From NCBI GenBank assembly GCA_013215945.1, contig JABSOM010000008.1:1-64000 (forward strand): DNA of 64,000 nucleotides, read 5' to 3'. The notes under the pieces are model-generated. The model saw only the letters and a list, made by a program, of their open reading frames with translations, ran no database searches and had not been told where the DNA came from. Position 1 is the stretch's first letter. Each line of letters opens with the position of its first letter. This document shows positions 28,705 to 32,787 of this stretch, one piece after another. The position numbers and the translations under genes were made by a program. The stretch comes from Campylobacteraceae bacterium. Lineage in GTDB: Bacteria > Campylobacterota > Campylobacteria > Campylobacterales > Arcobacteraceae.

Positions 28705-29019
28705 ATGAATAATCAGGTTTTAGAAAAATTAAAACAATTAAAACCAAGAATTAAAAATGAAGGTTTTGAACTAATAGGTGTTTTTGGATCTTTCGCTAGA
28801 AATGAAGAAAAACCTACAAGTGATATAGACATACTTTATCAAATAAAAGATACTAAAGAGTATTTAAAAAAATACTCAGGATGGAATAGTATCACCCATA
28901 TTATAGAAATCAAAGAACTCTTAAAAAAAGAATTAAACAGAAATATTGATTTTGTAGACAAGTCTTCTTTAGACTCTATTGCAAGAAAATATATTAAAAA
29001 AGATTTGATATATGTCTAA
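28705..29019 (+). CDS. mntA: MntA-type nucleotidyltransferase antitoxin
   Basis: 104 residues. The minimal nucleotidyltransferase motif GVFGSFARNEEKPTSDIDIL (25-44) has the GSFAR-x(10)-DxD arrangement (Asp40 and Asp42). In MntA/HepT pairs this enzyme adds AMP groups to a Tyr in HepT and so neutralises the RNase. It overlaps the downstream HEPN gene by eight bases, the usual pair layout. Confidence 0.88.
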   Translation: MNNQVLEKLKQLKPRIKNEGFELIGVFGSFARNEEKPTSDIDILYQIKDTKEYLKKYSGWNSITHIIEIKELLKKELNRNIDFVDKSSLDSIARKYIKKDLIYV

Positions 29020-29332
29020 AGCTAGAATAGAGACTATTTTAAAATACATAGATGATATAGAATATATTGTTTCAAACTATGACGGTGTGGTAAATACCTT
29101 AGATGATCGAATTGGTAAACATTCCCTTTTAATGTGTCTTATGCAAATTGGAGAAAATTTAAACAAATTAGACTCTTCAAATAAAATTATACAAGAAGCA
29201 ACACAAGGTGCTTATGCTGTTAGAAACTTTATCACACATGATTATGAGGGAATTAATTTAGCACTGATTGAAAATATCGTTAGAAACCTACTTAAACCTC
29301 TAAGCGTTGAACTTTTGAAAGAATTTAAATAA
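29012..29332 (+). CDS. hepT: HepT-type HEPN RNase toxin (DUF86)
   Basis: 106 residues, all-helical HEPN fold. The catalytic motif RNFITHDY (Arg71, His76, Tyr78) is the Rx4HxY form of HepT, where Arg/His cut RNA and Tyr is the AMPylation target. It pairs with the overlapping MntA gene. Both proteins look intact, so the module is probably active. It opens a stretch of toxin-antitoxin genes reaching 32.6 kb. Confidence 0.88.
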   Translation: MSKARIETILKYIDDIEYIVSNYDGVVNTLDDRIGKHSLLMCLMQIGENLNKLDSSNKIIQEATQGAYAVRNFITHDYEGINLALIENIVRNLLKPLSVELLKEFK

Positions 29333-29341
29333 AAAGTAATC

Positions 29342-29548
29342 TTATATGACAGGATTATTTAAAATAAGCTCAGCCGTTAAATTCTCTAAAGATGAAACAG
29401 ATTTATTTTTTTGTAAAACATCTTTCAATTCTATTGCAGAGTTTTTAAATTCCCCATAAAAAATATTTTCTTTCTTCTTTTTAAAATGTAGATTAATCGA
29501 TTCAAGAATATCTTTATTCTTTTTATTAGTAGGAAATAAAGTCTTCAT
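29342..29548 (-). CDS. Small hypothetical protein behind a CcdA-tail-like gene
   Basis: 68 residues, basic N-terminal half (PTNKKNKDILESINLHFKKKKENIF) and a more hydrophobic C-terminus (SSLENLTAELILNNPVI). It is not CcdB-like and I recognise no family. It follows the 48-codon CcdA-tail-like gene by 15 bases and has its own ribosome site (GAGAGGC). Position suggests the second member of a toxin-antitoxin-like pair; this is inference. It ends 10 bases from the convergent hepT stop. Confidence 0.6.
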   Translation of the reverse strand: MKTLFPTNKKNKDILESINLHFKKKKENIFYGEFKNSAIELKDVLQKNKSVSSLENLTAELILNNPVI

Positions 29549-29563
29549 TATTTGCCTCTCACT

Positions 29564-29710
29564 TTAAAACATTCTACTGTCTTGTAAAATAAGACCATAT
29601 TTTTCAATGTTCTCATTATACTTTTCAATAGCTTTTTTATTGGCTTCTTCCCAAGACTTTATTTTAATTCTTTTATCTTTTATAGAAATAAAAGTAGCTT
29701 TCTTTTTCAT
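29564..29710 (-). CDS. 48-residue protein with CcdA-type antitoxin C-terminus
   Basis: Translated by hand from the minus strand: ATG at 29710, TAA at 29564-29566. Residues 19-48 include SWEEANKKAIEKYN and end in YGLILQDSRMF. That is the pattern of CcdA antitoxin tails (W-x-E-x-N-x-x-AI-x-x-YN-x-x-x-E-x-x-G-...-R-x-F), the part that wraps around the toxin. Only 18 residues (MKKKATFISIKDKRIKIK) precede it, too few for a normal ribbon-helix-helix domain. AAGGATAG lies in front. It is 16 bases behind the ABM gene. Confidence 0.65.
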   Translation of the reverse strand: MKKKATFISIKDKRIKIKSWEEANKKAIEKYNENIEKYGLILQDSRMF

Positions 29711-29719
29711 AGCTATCCT

Positions 29720-29755
29720 TAATAAGCTAAACAGAAGTAAGAAATATTACTTCTG
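29720..29755. repeat. 36-base direct repeat, copy 1 (with internal hairpin)
   Basis: Matches 30784-30819 with one mismatch (C/T at 29727 versus 30791). It contains the perfect inverted repeat CAGAAGTAA/TTACTTCTG. Copy 1 encodes the last residues and stop of the ABM gene on the minus strand. Confidence 0.8.
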
Positions 29756-30020
29756 CCCCTTTGGCTCTAAAGAGTACATTCTTTTTATCCGCTTCAATCA
29801 TAAAGTCCTGTTTTTCATGAAGCAATAATGCTTCTTTTGAAGCCCACTTTTCAAGAATAACAAACTTATTCTCAGCACCTTTCACAGCTTTGAGTTCATA
29901 CTGTAAACACCCAACTTCTTCCAATACCAAAGAAGAAATAGAAGAAAAAGCATCAATCTGTTCTTGCCTACGTCCAGCTTTGACTTCGATGTTTATGATT
30001 AGCGATATTATTTCATTCAT
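29727..30020 (-). CDS. ABM-family monooxygenase-like protein (YgiN type)
   Basis: 97 residues from the ATG at 30020, chosen because AAAGGGTTTTAT lies in front; the frame extends 11 codons further. The ferredoxin-like ABM domain is complete: IINIEVKAGRRQEQIDAF (6-23), LEEVGCLQYEL, FVILEKWASKEALLLHEK. YgiN-like proteins oxidise quinols or small aromatics without cofactor. Its last ten codons lie within a 36-base repeat that recurs at 30784. Confidence 0.82.
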   Translation of the reverse strand: MNEIISLIINIEVKAGRRQEQIDAFSSISSLVLEEVGCLQYELKAVKGAENKFVILEKWASKEALLLHEKQDFMIEADKKNVLFRAKGAEVIFLTSV

Positions 30021-30204
30021 ATAAAACCCTTTAAAAAGTGTAATGTTATACATTATTATAGAAAAAAGAAACTTAAATGTAAAAGTAGTTTTAGACAGAT
30101 AGTTATTCTTTTAATATTCCCAATGGATATTTATTAAGAAAACTCTAGGTATTTTGCTTATCTAGAATATTTATGTTAAAATTAAAAGAAGAAAAGAGGT
30201 TAAG

Positions 30205-30438
30205 ATGCATACAATTACTCTAAATATAGAAGATAATGCTTTCAAAAAATTTATGAATACTATGAAGCAGTTTAGTAAAGATGAAATACATATTGAAGAT
30301 TTAGATAATGCTATTACTCAATATCCTAATATTTCTTTTGAAGATGCAGAAAAAAAAGTCCTTAATGCAGTAAAAAACATATCAAGAAATGAAGGTCTTT
30401 CAGAAGAAGAAGTATTTAACAACATTCTAGGTAAATGA
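30205..30438 (+). CDS. Antitoxin of a ParE-type pair
   Basis: 77 residues. An N-terminal strand and helix (HTITLNIEDNAFKKFMNTMKQF) fit a short DNA-binding/antitoxin fold. The C-terminus is acidic and probably flexible (ISFEDAEKKVLNAVKNISRNEGLSEEEVF). There is no strict RHH family match. It overlaps the toxin gene by four bases (ATGA), the standard antitoxin-first layout. AAAAGAGGTTAAG precedes the ATG. Confidence 0.78.
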   Translation: MHTITLNIEDNAFKKFMNTMKQFSKDEIHIEDLDNAITQYPNISFEDAEKKVLNAVKNISRNEGLSEEEVFNNILGK

Positions 30439-30716
30439 AATATAAAATTTTAATTGAACCAAGTGCAGTCAAAGACTTAAATTCAATTTATAATTTTATA
30501 GAAAAAAATGATTCAAAAACAAAAGCTAAAAACTTTCTTTCAAAACTACAAAAACAAATCAAAACACTAAATCAAATGCCACAAATATATAGAGATTCTT
30601 ATTATTTAAAAGATGGGAAAACAAAAGACCTAATTTATAAGGGTTATACTATTTGTTATCATATAAACAGCAATAGGGTACATATTCTTTCAGTATTTAG
30701 ACAAAAAAATTATTAA
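30435..30716 (+). CDS. RelE/ParE family toxin
   Basis: 93 residues. KILIEPSAVKDLNSIYNFIEKND (4-26), a helix pair, YRDSYYLKDGKTKDLIYKGYTICYHI and a C-terminal VHILSVFRQKNY fit the ParE/RelE fold. The C-terminal VFRQ.. arrangement is ParE/YoeB-like. Members either block gyrase or cut mRNA; which applies here cannot be told. Start overlaps the antitoxin gene by four bases. Confidence 0.85.
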   Translation: MKYKILIEPSAVKDLNSIYNFIEKNDSKTKAKNFLSKLQKQIKTLNQMPQIYRDSYYLKDGKTKDLIYKGYTICYHINSNRVHILSVFRQKNY

Positions 30717-30783
30717 GAAATATTTTATCTCACTCTTTAACATACCGTCAAAGTGGAGATTCATACTCTGCGGTTTTAAGTTA

Positions 30784-30819
30784 TAATAAGTTAAACAGAA
30801 GTAAGAAATATTACTTCTG
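30784..30819. repeat. 36-base direct repeat, copy 2
   Basis: Second copy of the sequence at 29720-29755, 1,064 bases away and in the same orientation. The minus-strand reading still encodes TEVIFLTSV then stop, the last residues of the ABM protein, but no ABM gene precedes it. The internal hairpin could terminate the ParE pair (stem followed by TCCTCCTTTTCTTT). Confidence 0.75.
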
Positions 30820-30915
30820 TCCTCCTTTTCTTTAATTCAATTGCATCAGATAAAAGGATAAGAAAGATATTTAGAAAATAAGAAAAAAATTTTTCTTAAA
30901 GAATAATATATCTTT

Positions 30916-31647
30916 TTACAGAATTTTTTTGAATTCATCATTTTCAAATGGCTCAAAGTTTTTAGGCCATCTAGTTTTTAGTTTGCATAATAATTTCATT
31001 TGTACAGGCGCATCAAAATTAACTTTTTCTACAGAAATATTAACTTCTGTTGCTCCATTTAATTCAAGTAACTTATTGAAATCGCTAACGAAAAAAGAAG
31101 GGCAATATCCCAATAACTCAACAGGATCTTCATTTGTTCTTAATCCCAGAGCCAAAGAGTCAGATTCATTTTGAATATCTTTAAATATTAGTAATTTATC
31201 ATTAACTTTTAATTCTAGTAGTCTTTTAACGTAATGTTTTGCAATATGACTAACTCCATGTGAAAAGAAAAGAACTTCATAGTTACCATATAGATCTTTT
31301 TCAGGATATGGAAAAAGTTGTAAGTTATCAGTAGCACGAATTCCTCTGCTTCGAGATAACTCTTTTAAGTCATGTGAATCATTTTTATCTATATTAAGCC
31401 AACTAATAAAGTCCTCATATTCTGGTCTAGTTTTTGAAAGTAACCTGTTTTTAAAAAGTGGAAATAATTCTTCAGACACGTAAGTTTTATTTAATTCATT
31501 CATTTGACTAAAAGCTATAAAATCATTATCCTTAGCTCCATTTGTATAGTTAAAATAAAATTTTTCATCTTTATGTTCTAATATACCAACCGAAACCCAT
31601 GTTCTATTCACAGGATTTCTCCATGATAAAACTAGTTTATTTTCCAT
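30916..31647 (-). CDS. HipA-N-like plus HIRAN domain protein
   Basis: 243 residues from the ATG at 31647 (GAGGAATCTAAAA in front); a TTG start 15 bases earlier is less likely. The first half (about 5-85: LSWRNPVNRTWVSVGIL, YTNGAKD, LFPLFKNRLLSKTRPEYEDFISWL) resembles the N-terminal subdomain of HipA kinases. The second half (about 105-190: VLFFSHGVSHI, LKVNDKLLIFKDIQNESDSLALGL, LLGYCPSFFVSDFNKLL) has the HIRAN pattern, a domain that in HLTF binds DNA 3' ends. The start overlaps the kinase gene by 11 bases. Confidence 0.72.
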   Translation of the reverse strand: MENKLVLSWRNPVNRTWVSVGILEHKDEKFYFNYTNGAKDNDFIAFSQMNELNKTYVSEELFPLFKNRLLSKTRPEYEDFISWLNIDKNDSHDLKELSRSRGIRATDNLQLFPYPEKDLYGNYEVLFFSHGVSHIAKHYVKRLLELKVNDKLLIFKDIQNESDSLALGLRTNEDPVELLGYCPSFFVSDFNKLLELNGATEVNISVEKVNFDAPVQMKLLCKLKTRWPKNFEPFENDEFKKIL

Positions 31648-32557
31648 TTTTAGATTCCTCAATTAATTTTATTAATCTTTTTTTATTAACTCTAAGCATT
31701 TCCATTGCAAATTTGACCGATATTTCACTTATTAATTCATTTGGTACTTTAGAAAATATTTCTTCCATTTCACAAATATTAAAATTACTCAATTTTTTCA
31801 ACCAATATAATGCAGCTTTTTTATTATGTAAAGAGCAAAAAATAAATGCATCATATGTACTAAGTTTTTTCCCAGTTTTCTTGAGGTAAAAAGGTGTTTT
31901 TGCTCTATTTACAAAATTATCAACTTTAAACCCATTATCTGAAGATATAAGTCTATTCTTTTTTCGTTCTTCGGGTTCTCTACATCCTAATCCAGATGCA
32001 TGATCATAAGTAGGTGTCAAATATACTTTTTTATTATCTACAACTAATCCCCAGTTTTCATGGTGCCTATCTGGATTAGATATTAGACAATCTAACATTA
32101 TATAACCAACAAAAACATCAAAGGCAGAGTTCATTTCTGAACTCTCGTAATTAATTGGTACATCTATAATATCAGTTTTCAATACTGCCAAAACTGTACT
32201 TAAATTATACTCTTTTAACCCATATTTCTTGTGGCTATCATAATCAATATCTTTTAACACACCCGCTAATAATTCATTTCCTAAAACTAATCTTCCTGAT
32301 GAAGGAACAAAATTCTCTGTAATTGTTCCTTTCATTTCTTCATATTCTGAAAATTCATATTTTGCATGAGGAATATCAAGTTTTATACAAAGTTCGCTAA
32401 CTACTACCTCTACCCAGTTTTCGCCGGTATTTTTCCTTCCTTCTTTAAATAACTTTTTAATTTTGTTATCATAAAACCAGAATTTTGCTTTTGTACCTAA
32501 TTGCTCGAGAGAATCTTTTTCTCCAGTTAGAATTCTTTTAATTTTGAATTTTTTCAT
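31637..32557 (-). CDS. HipA-like serine/threonine kinase core
   Basis: 306 residues lacking the N-terminal HipA subdomain. GTKAKFWFYD (21-30) is the P-loop-like ATP region, Lys38 in LFKEG and Glu55 in VVSELC fit the ATP-anchoring pair, NPDRHHENWG (161-170) is the catalytic loop (Asp163, Asn168) and TPTYDHASGLG (181-191) holds the metal-binding Asp. HipA-type kinases phosphorylate tRNA synthetases or other targets to arrest growth. The missing N-subdomain appears to be supplied by the overlapping downstream gene. No HipB-like HTH gene is adjacent. Confidence 0.82.
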   Translation of the reverse strand: MKKFKIKRILTGEKDSLEQLGTKAKFWFYDNKIKKLFKEGRKNTGENWVEVVVSELCIKLDIPHAKYEFSEYEEMKGTITENFVPSSGRLVLGNELLAGVLKDIDYDSHKKYGLKEYNLSTVLAVLKTDIIDVPINYESSEMNSAFDVFVGYIMLDCLISNPDRHHENWGLVVDNKKVYLTPTYDHASGLGCREPEERKKNRLISSDNGFKVDNFVNRAKTPFYLKKTGKKLSTYDAFIFCSLHNKKAALYWLKKLSNFNICEMEEIFSKVPNELISEISVKFAMEMLRVNKKRLIKLIEESKNGK

Positions 32558-32642
32558 TAAATATTAGTCCATTGTTTAATGAACTTATATTAGCATAAAA
32601 TCGCAAAATAATTATACACTTTCTACTTTAACCCTAATTTTC

Positions 32643-32787
32643 AAATAATGCTTAGAAATTAGACAATTTTGTTCAAGTTCAAGGCGGAGCGAAAATTAGC
32701 CTAGGAGCTTACGTCCGTAAGTGACTAGGTTAATTTTTGTGACAACGCAGAAATTGGGCAAAAGTGGCTGATTTATGAGCGTTATTT
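32643..32787. repeat. 145-nt imperfect palindromic element
   Basis: The whole stretch folds on itself. The tip is CTTACG (32708-32713), TC, CGTAAG (32716-32721). Further out are CCTAG/CTAGG, AAAATTA/TAATTTTT, GTTCAA/TTGGGC-type matches, CAATTTTG/CAAAAGTGG and at the ends AAATAATGCT (32643-32652) with AGCGTTATTT (32778-32787). Base composition is clearly more GC-rich than its surroundings. It overlaps the stop codon of the downstream-encoded flavoprotein gene. It resembles a non-coding mobile or REP-like element; no copy number is known from this window. Confidence 0.72.

Follow-up and report, generated by a model that had tools for sequence, protein, structure and literature searches.

A recently acquired hipIN kinase-HIRAN pair with a reduced end-binding pocket in a Campylobacteraceae bacterium, and its relatives in the P2 gpA-gpQ hotspot

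The window analysed here, a stretch of 64,000 nucleotides from a Campylobacteraceae bacterium (bases 1-64000 of contig C8, in a genome of 3.24 Mb and 28 contigs), contains a two-gene hipIN locus that we interpret as a horizontally acquired toxin-antitoxin module, probably used against phages. Both the arrangement and the accompanying hypothesis are already published: Gerdes, Baerentsen and Brodersen (2021) described hipIN together with HipL and proposed an abortive infection triggered by DNA ends (PMC8262856), and the window locus is another hipIN. What is new is the pairing of the two genes in all of the loci surveyed for it, an asymmetry in the interruptions that they suffer, the absence of the pair from a congener, the relatives situated in the P2 hotspot and a clade-specific loss of the HIRAN end pocket; among these, the P2-hotspot placement is the most informative new result. 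The features of the locus are the following.

30783..32664, no strand assigned: acquired segment, delimited by BLAST of the flanks; congener G001 lacks it and has an unrelated gene at this place
31637..32557, minus strand: hipI, HipA-type Ser/Thr kinase core and predicted toxin (306-aa ORF, HipA_C, PDC-M03A, profile match to CtkA)
32477..32500, minus strand: Gly-rich loop region of hipI, residues 20-27 (LGTKAKFW); G21 and W27 invariant, K25 near-invariant
32051..32077, minus strand: catalytic loop of hipI, residues 161-169 (NPDRHHENW); D163, R164, H165, N168 and W169 invariant in 96 homologues
32003..32005, minus strand: Mg-binding Asp codon of hipI (D185), invariant
30916..31647, minus strand: hipN, HipS-like plus HIRAN protein of 243 aa and predicted antitoxin (ORF, PDC-M03B, AlphaFold pLDDT 95.7)
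31303..31644, minus strand: HipS / HipA N-subdomain-1 fold, HipN residues 2-115 (VIA Z 12.0 to 7vkb_B, 11.3 to 7ab3_B)
30931..31296, minus strand: HIRAN domain, HipN residues 118-239 (VIA Z 13.8 to 3k2y, 10.5 to HLTF); end-pocket positions 133, 162 and 184 all Ser

The hipI reading frame (32557..31637, minus strand) starts with ATG and runs uninterrupted for 306 aa, within the short-core range of 279-321 aa of the hipIN definition, and places the Gly-rich loop near the N terminus of the product. HipI carries the canonical Hip kinase motifs, comprising the Gly-rich loop, the catalytic loop DRHHEN and the Mg-binding Asp, and the positions aligning with Hip catalytic residues (G21, K38, E50, D163, R164, H165, N168 and D185) are invariant across 96 homologues. 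The PADLOC model PDC-M03A matches HipI with E=4.6e-107, and the Pfam HipA_C family matches residues 44-190 with E=6e-7 and a score marginally under the curated cut-off (29.7 against 30.5 bits). Among solved structures, CtkA is closest to the kinase family by profile (E 1.5e-19), and the kinase part of the related HipL superposes on the HipT and HipA kinase cores. An earlier note on this DNA had described a split kinase core without the HipA N-subdomain and with its catalytic motifs complete, a description that these matches bear out: hipI is an intact Hip-type kinase gene without N-subdomain 1.

The partner gene overlaps hipI by 11 bp and is read on the minus strand from an ATG at 31647 to a stop at 30916, yielding 243 aa (a TTG at 31662 would give a 248-aa reading). 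PADLOC PDC-M03B matches HipN with E=5e-83; the Pfam HIRAN (E=6.6e-4) and Couple_hipA (HipA-N, E=0.038) families each fall under their curated cut-offs. The profile searches that the earlier note had suggested as a check on both proteins are thus strongly positive with the PADLOC models, whereas HipA_C, HIRAN and HipA-N all stay below threshold in Pfam. The weak sequence matches of HipN were resolved by structure comparison. An AlphaFold model computed from an alignment of 95 homologues (pLDDT 95.7, pTM 0.90) was compared with solved structures using VIA-align, in which residues 2-115 superpose on the HipS proteins of Legionella (7vkb_B; Z 12.0, rmsd 2.1, 100 aa) and E. coli (7ab3_B; Z 11.3), as well as on the HipA N-subdomain (2wiu; Z 11.0), and residues 118-239 superpose on the HIRAN domains of 3k2y (Z 13.8), HLTF (4xzg; Z 10.5 over 107 residues) and Rad5 (6l8n; Z 8.8). 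Comparison of HipN with solved structures by sequence alone recovered HIRAN and did not recover HipS. The proposed composition of the overlapping gene, a HipA-N-like half joined to a HIRAN half, is therefore upheld by the fold of both halves, and the analogy with HipBST is structurally sound. HipN has no evident counterpart of HipS Trp65; the matching loop, in a register that is uncertain, has an invariant Arg (R74).

With a kinase alignment as query, GTDB genomes and IMG/VR each gave 80 loci; a lone kinase sequence as query had matched nothing in viral contigs, where the alignment did find loci. In each of these 160 loci HipN is encoded immediately 3' of the kinase and on the same strand, with one instance of fusion (L178), and overlaps of 4 or 8 bp between the two genes are common, so that the arrangement seen in the window is not a chance one. 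Pairwise distances among HipI and among HipN sequences are closely correlated over 95 pairs (Mantel r 0.90; best of 999 permutations 0.19), indicating that the pair moves as a unit. HipI and HipN hence constitute a tightly linked, co-inherited pair across bacteria, sometimes present as one polypeptide (HipL).

Interruptions were counted in 171 loci, which correspond to 102 clusters at 80% HipN identity with one fusion counted. The kinase frame is clearly interrupted in six of them (L010, L011, L039, L069, L160 and L164) and probably in a seventh (L073), and the partner frame in none of the 171. If lesions fall on each gene in proportion to its length, the kinase would take all six with probability 0.030 and all seven with probability 0.017, in a sample that is biased against broken kinases, most loci having been found via the kinase. 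This asymmetry fits a partner that restrains a harmful kinase and, resting on few cases of which several are metagenome assemblies, amounts to support and not to proof. Phase variation was considered as the cause of the broken kinases and rejected, since two interrupted kinases that were examined contain no long homopolymer tracts.

The hipIN segment is recent and dispensable in this genome. Congener G001, whose flanks are 91-93% identical, shares the HPP gene, the MntA-HepT pair, the ParE region and the HI0933 gene with the window and is missing hipIN, holding an unrelated 374-aa gene where the window has 30783-32664; in two further genomes (G002 and G003) the two outer genes are conserved and enclose different content, and the kinase is present in only one (G024) among 59 relatives searched. 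The 374-aa gene of G001 (L216 1435-2559) has zero Pfam or PADLOC matches and, as swap partner at a variable site, may be an unrecognised defence gene. The nearest HipN homologues belong to Campylobacterota such as Sulfurospirillum and Sulfurimonas, and a HipN tree groups the window copy with Campylobacterota and the gammaproteobacterium Parabeggiatoa in a five-member clade (support 100/98). The Parabeggiatoa HipN nests within the campylobacterotal clade, a placement that suggests horizontal transfer. Relatives of the same class also have four short HIRAN genes that stand alone, in other neighbourhoods lacking a Hip kinase, and these were set aside.

The genes adjoining hipIN encode a ParE-type pair and an HI0933-family oxidoreductase. 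As the earlier note had stated, no HTH or HipB gene is found among them, and the three-gene composition of HipBST is not present. The window copy lies outside any recognised prophage or known defence island, which counts against a defence reading. Directly adjoining hipIN at 28705-30716 are two pairs of toxin-antitoxin type, MntA-HepT and a ParE toxin preceded by a small ORF that has no match. An element of ~110-120 nt with a palindromic core (CCTAGGAGCTTACG...CGTAAGTGACTAGG) occupies 32655-32775, and diverged copies of it (68-80% identity) occur in 8 of the 31 genomes searched, with at most 9 per genome; no Rfam families were identified in the window, and this element is likewise without an Rfam match. 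A second pair in the same genome, on contig C3 (L004 709-2274), looks classical, with an HTH gene and after it a 420-aa HipA that includes an N-terminal part of its own.

Elsewhere, hipIN is carried by plasmids and neighbours integrase genes, both in Vibrio PM2-like prophages and in a C. difficile phage. The 148 ORFs near hipIN loci, analysed with PADLOC and Pfam, include type I and IIG restriction-modification and AriA matches, for which no enrichment is claimed. On a Rhodococcus plasmid (L019 3962-5561), hipIN is inserted into a restriction-modification operon, where it separates the specificity subunit from the methyltransferase. The HipN of a Dehalococcoidia MAG (L057 10928-12172) has ~170 additional C-terminal residues in a 416-aa frame.

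Among 94 distinct viral loci (L178 and L184 being a single contig), 37 have the P2 replication gene gpA upstream and the portal gene gpQ downstream, and 13 more show one of these. The P2 gpA-gpQ site is the old/tin locus, an experimentally shown anti-phage hotspot (PMC9122126, PMC9519451), and HipA and HIRAN are absent from the main text of both of these papers. Loci at the hotspot include bicistronic hipIN as well as HipL and fall at 80% identity into ~2 hipIN and 5 HipL clusters. The gpA-gpQ position is also occupied in two annotated E. coli genomes, one with hipIN and one with HipL, and likewise in Escherichia phage 899. Of 5426 complete E. coli genomes, 61 have HipL, which also occurs in 15 viral loci, and 21 have an intact hipIN of this E. 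coli type. A model of HipL (L190; pLDDT 91.7, pTM 0.81), obtained from an alignment that mixes fusions with HipI rows and HipN rows (eight fusions, landmark columns correct), has the same domain order as hipI-hipN, and its kinase is closest by fold to CtkA (Z 28.3), followed by HipT (19.1) and HipA (18.7).

Two further observations concern these P2-like elements. In all HipL loci examined in P2-like prophages (L183 7440-7991; L184-L198), a gene for a DEDD-type exonuclease (Pfam Rv2179c-like, 6.8e-57) lies just upstream of HipL, and it is missing beside bicistronic hipIN loci. In Gram-positive bacteria, a 2025 paper found HIRAN-HipA pairs to have deoxydinucleotide nucleases as neighbours and noted a predicted defence function (PMC11706625); the exonuclease neighbour of HipL would carry this nuclease link over to Gram-negative phages. 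In E. coli SW071614 (L225) and H2 (L226), the P2 remnant has decayed, with truncation or a frameshift in its portal gene, yet hipIN or HipL is intact, as if retained past the death of the prophage.

An anti-phage defence role for hipIN is likely, and a working mechanism can be outlined by analogy with characterised systems. Inhibition of HipT by HipS relies on a residue that HipS inserts next to the Gly-rich loop (PMC10627512), and HipN would bind HipI through its HipS-like domain and block the Gly-rich loop in the same manner, with HIRAN as the likely sensor or anchor. Upon infection, a trigger seen by HIRAN would cause HipN to let HipI go, and the freed kinase would phosphorylate an essential host factor, which by analogy with HipA and HipT may be an aminoacyl-tRNA synthetase, stopping growth and aborting the infection. 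For HipAD, a HipA kinase with a non-HipB partner, phage defence has been validated and the kinase residue is needed (PMC13092281). No experiments on hipIN or HipL were found in the literature searched, and the presence of intact hipIN and HipL in E. coli, with the loci examined located in the P2 hotspot, makes the DNA-sensing-kinase hypothesis directly testable in E. coli.

The HipN equivalents of HLTF R71, Y72, Y93, D94 and K113, of which we take D94 and K113 to be further end-pocket positions, are residues 133, 134, 162, 163 and 184, in a register supported by structural alignment for 133 = 71 (model 119 = HLTF 57) and by profile alignment for 162 = 93. The HIRAN domain of HLTF binds 3' DNA ends (PMC8262856, PMC11366124), its Y72 and Y93 make stacking contacts with the bound dinucleotide (PMC4666394), and the R71E substitution abolishes binding of 3'-OH DNA ends (PMC11366124). 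All five residue classes are kept in 42 of 100 HipN sequences, and nearly all of the 100 have an aromatic residue at 134 and an Asp at 163. The window HipN has S133, H134, S162, D163 and S184, so that three of the five, the equivalents of R71, Y93 and K113, are lost, and positions 133, 162 and 184 are lost in its four clade mates too; Gerdes et al. reported pocket loss in actinobacterial HipN (PMC8262856). The end-binding pocket thus looks usable in many HipN relatives and not in the window clade.

These residues bear directly on the proposal, made by the earlier note and by Gerdes et al., that the HIRAN domain of this very copy binds the ends of invading or damaged DNA and thereby frees the kinase. 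The fold is present and its HLTF counterpart does bind 3' ends, most relatives keep the pocket wholly or largely, and Asp163 and the aromatic at 134 are retained in the window copy; yet the copy and its four clade mates have no equivalents of R71, Y93 and K113, and R71E alone is enough to eliminate end binding by HLTF (PMC11366124). Their loss weakens the proposal for the window copy, in which DNA-end sensing is doubtful as judged from its pocket residues and the full proposal is unlikely, whereas for the HipN family the DNA-end hypothesis stands. The window HipN probably senses something besides a free 3' DNA end, or its HIRAN is a scaffold only. We tentatively raise the possibility that in the clade of Campylobacterota and Parabeggiatoa HIRAN no longer reads 3' ends and now senses another trigger, such as a phage protein or other nucleic-acid form; in that case hipIN would be a modular kinase alarm, in which sensor specificity evolves and the kinase and HipS lock stay fixed. 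Comparison of the pocket-intact with the pocket-lost HIRAN clades offers a natural control on whether the trigger is the binding of DNA ends.

Other readings dispense with phage sensing or place it second. An ordinary stabilising or addictive toxin-antitoxin module of mobile elements, with no specific phage sensing, would account for the toxin-antitoxin anatomy, for mobile contexts that include plasmids, for the clustering here with MntA-HepT and ParE-type pairs, and for a patchy distribution with retention in decayed P2 remnants. We nevertheless hold it to be unlikely, considering that relatives occur repeatedly in the gpA-gpQ anti-phage hotspot and beside prophage integrases, that PADLOC lists the pair as a defence candidate, and that a sensor-type domain stands where a DNA-binding repressor would be expected. 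The known roles of HIRAN in fork remodelling and repair (PMC11366124, PMC4666394, PMC8262856) would agree with a checkpoint for DNA damage or replication stress, in which HIRAN reads stalled host forks and the kinase slows growth until repair, phage defence being secondary; such a function is improbable for an accessory, horizontally mobile pair that is missing from nearly all relatives, travels as prophage and plasmid cargo and has lost the pocket in the window clade. Even less credible is a decayed or repurposed kinase without toxicity, for although some relatives have a broken kinase beside an intact partner, the frame and every catalytic residue of the window kinase are intact. Beyond what the sequence alone offered the earlier note, the defence role is supported by the PADLOC candidate listing and by enterobacterial relatives in the validated P2 hotspot.

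Compared with known systems, the closest solved kinase relative both by profile (E 1.5e-19) and by HipL fold (Z 28.3) is CtkA of Helicobacter pylori (3akj/3akk), deposited as a pro-inflammatory kinase. The A and B models of the PADLOC phage-defence candidate PDC-M03 strongly match both window proteins; PDC-M03 is a computational candidate whose name was not found in the literature searched. HipBST of E. coli O127 and Legionella likewise has a separate kinase core and a HipA-N piece of the same fold as a separate protein, but it includes an HTH protein (HipB), has no HIRAN and places the kinase gene last, whereas the window pair starts with the kinase gene and joins HIRAN to its HipS part in one protein. 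HipAD (DS-6) shares a HipA-type kinase with a non-HipB partner and has been shown to defend against phage, its partner carrying DUF3037 and DUF1829 and not HipS and HIRAN (PMC13092281). HipL has the same three domains in identical order (PMC8262856), in a single polypeptide of ~550 aa instead of two genes and, in P2-like prophages, preceded by the DEDD-type exonuclease gene. With hipIN as published (PMC8262856), the window locus shares a short HipI without N-subdomain 1, the Hip motifs, a downstream HipN composed of HipS-like and HIRAN parts, and the lack of HipB; no difference in architecture was found, and the window copy is set apart by a HIRAN domain that misses three of the five end-pocket residues.
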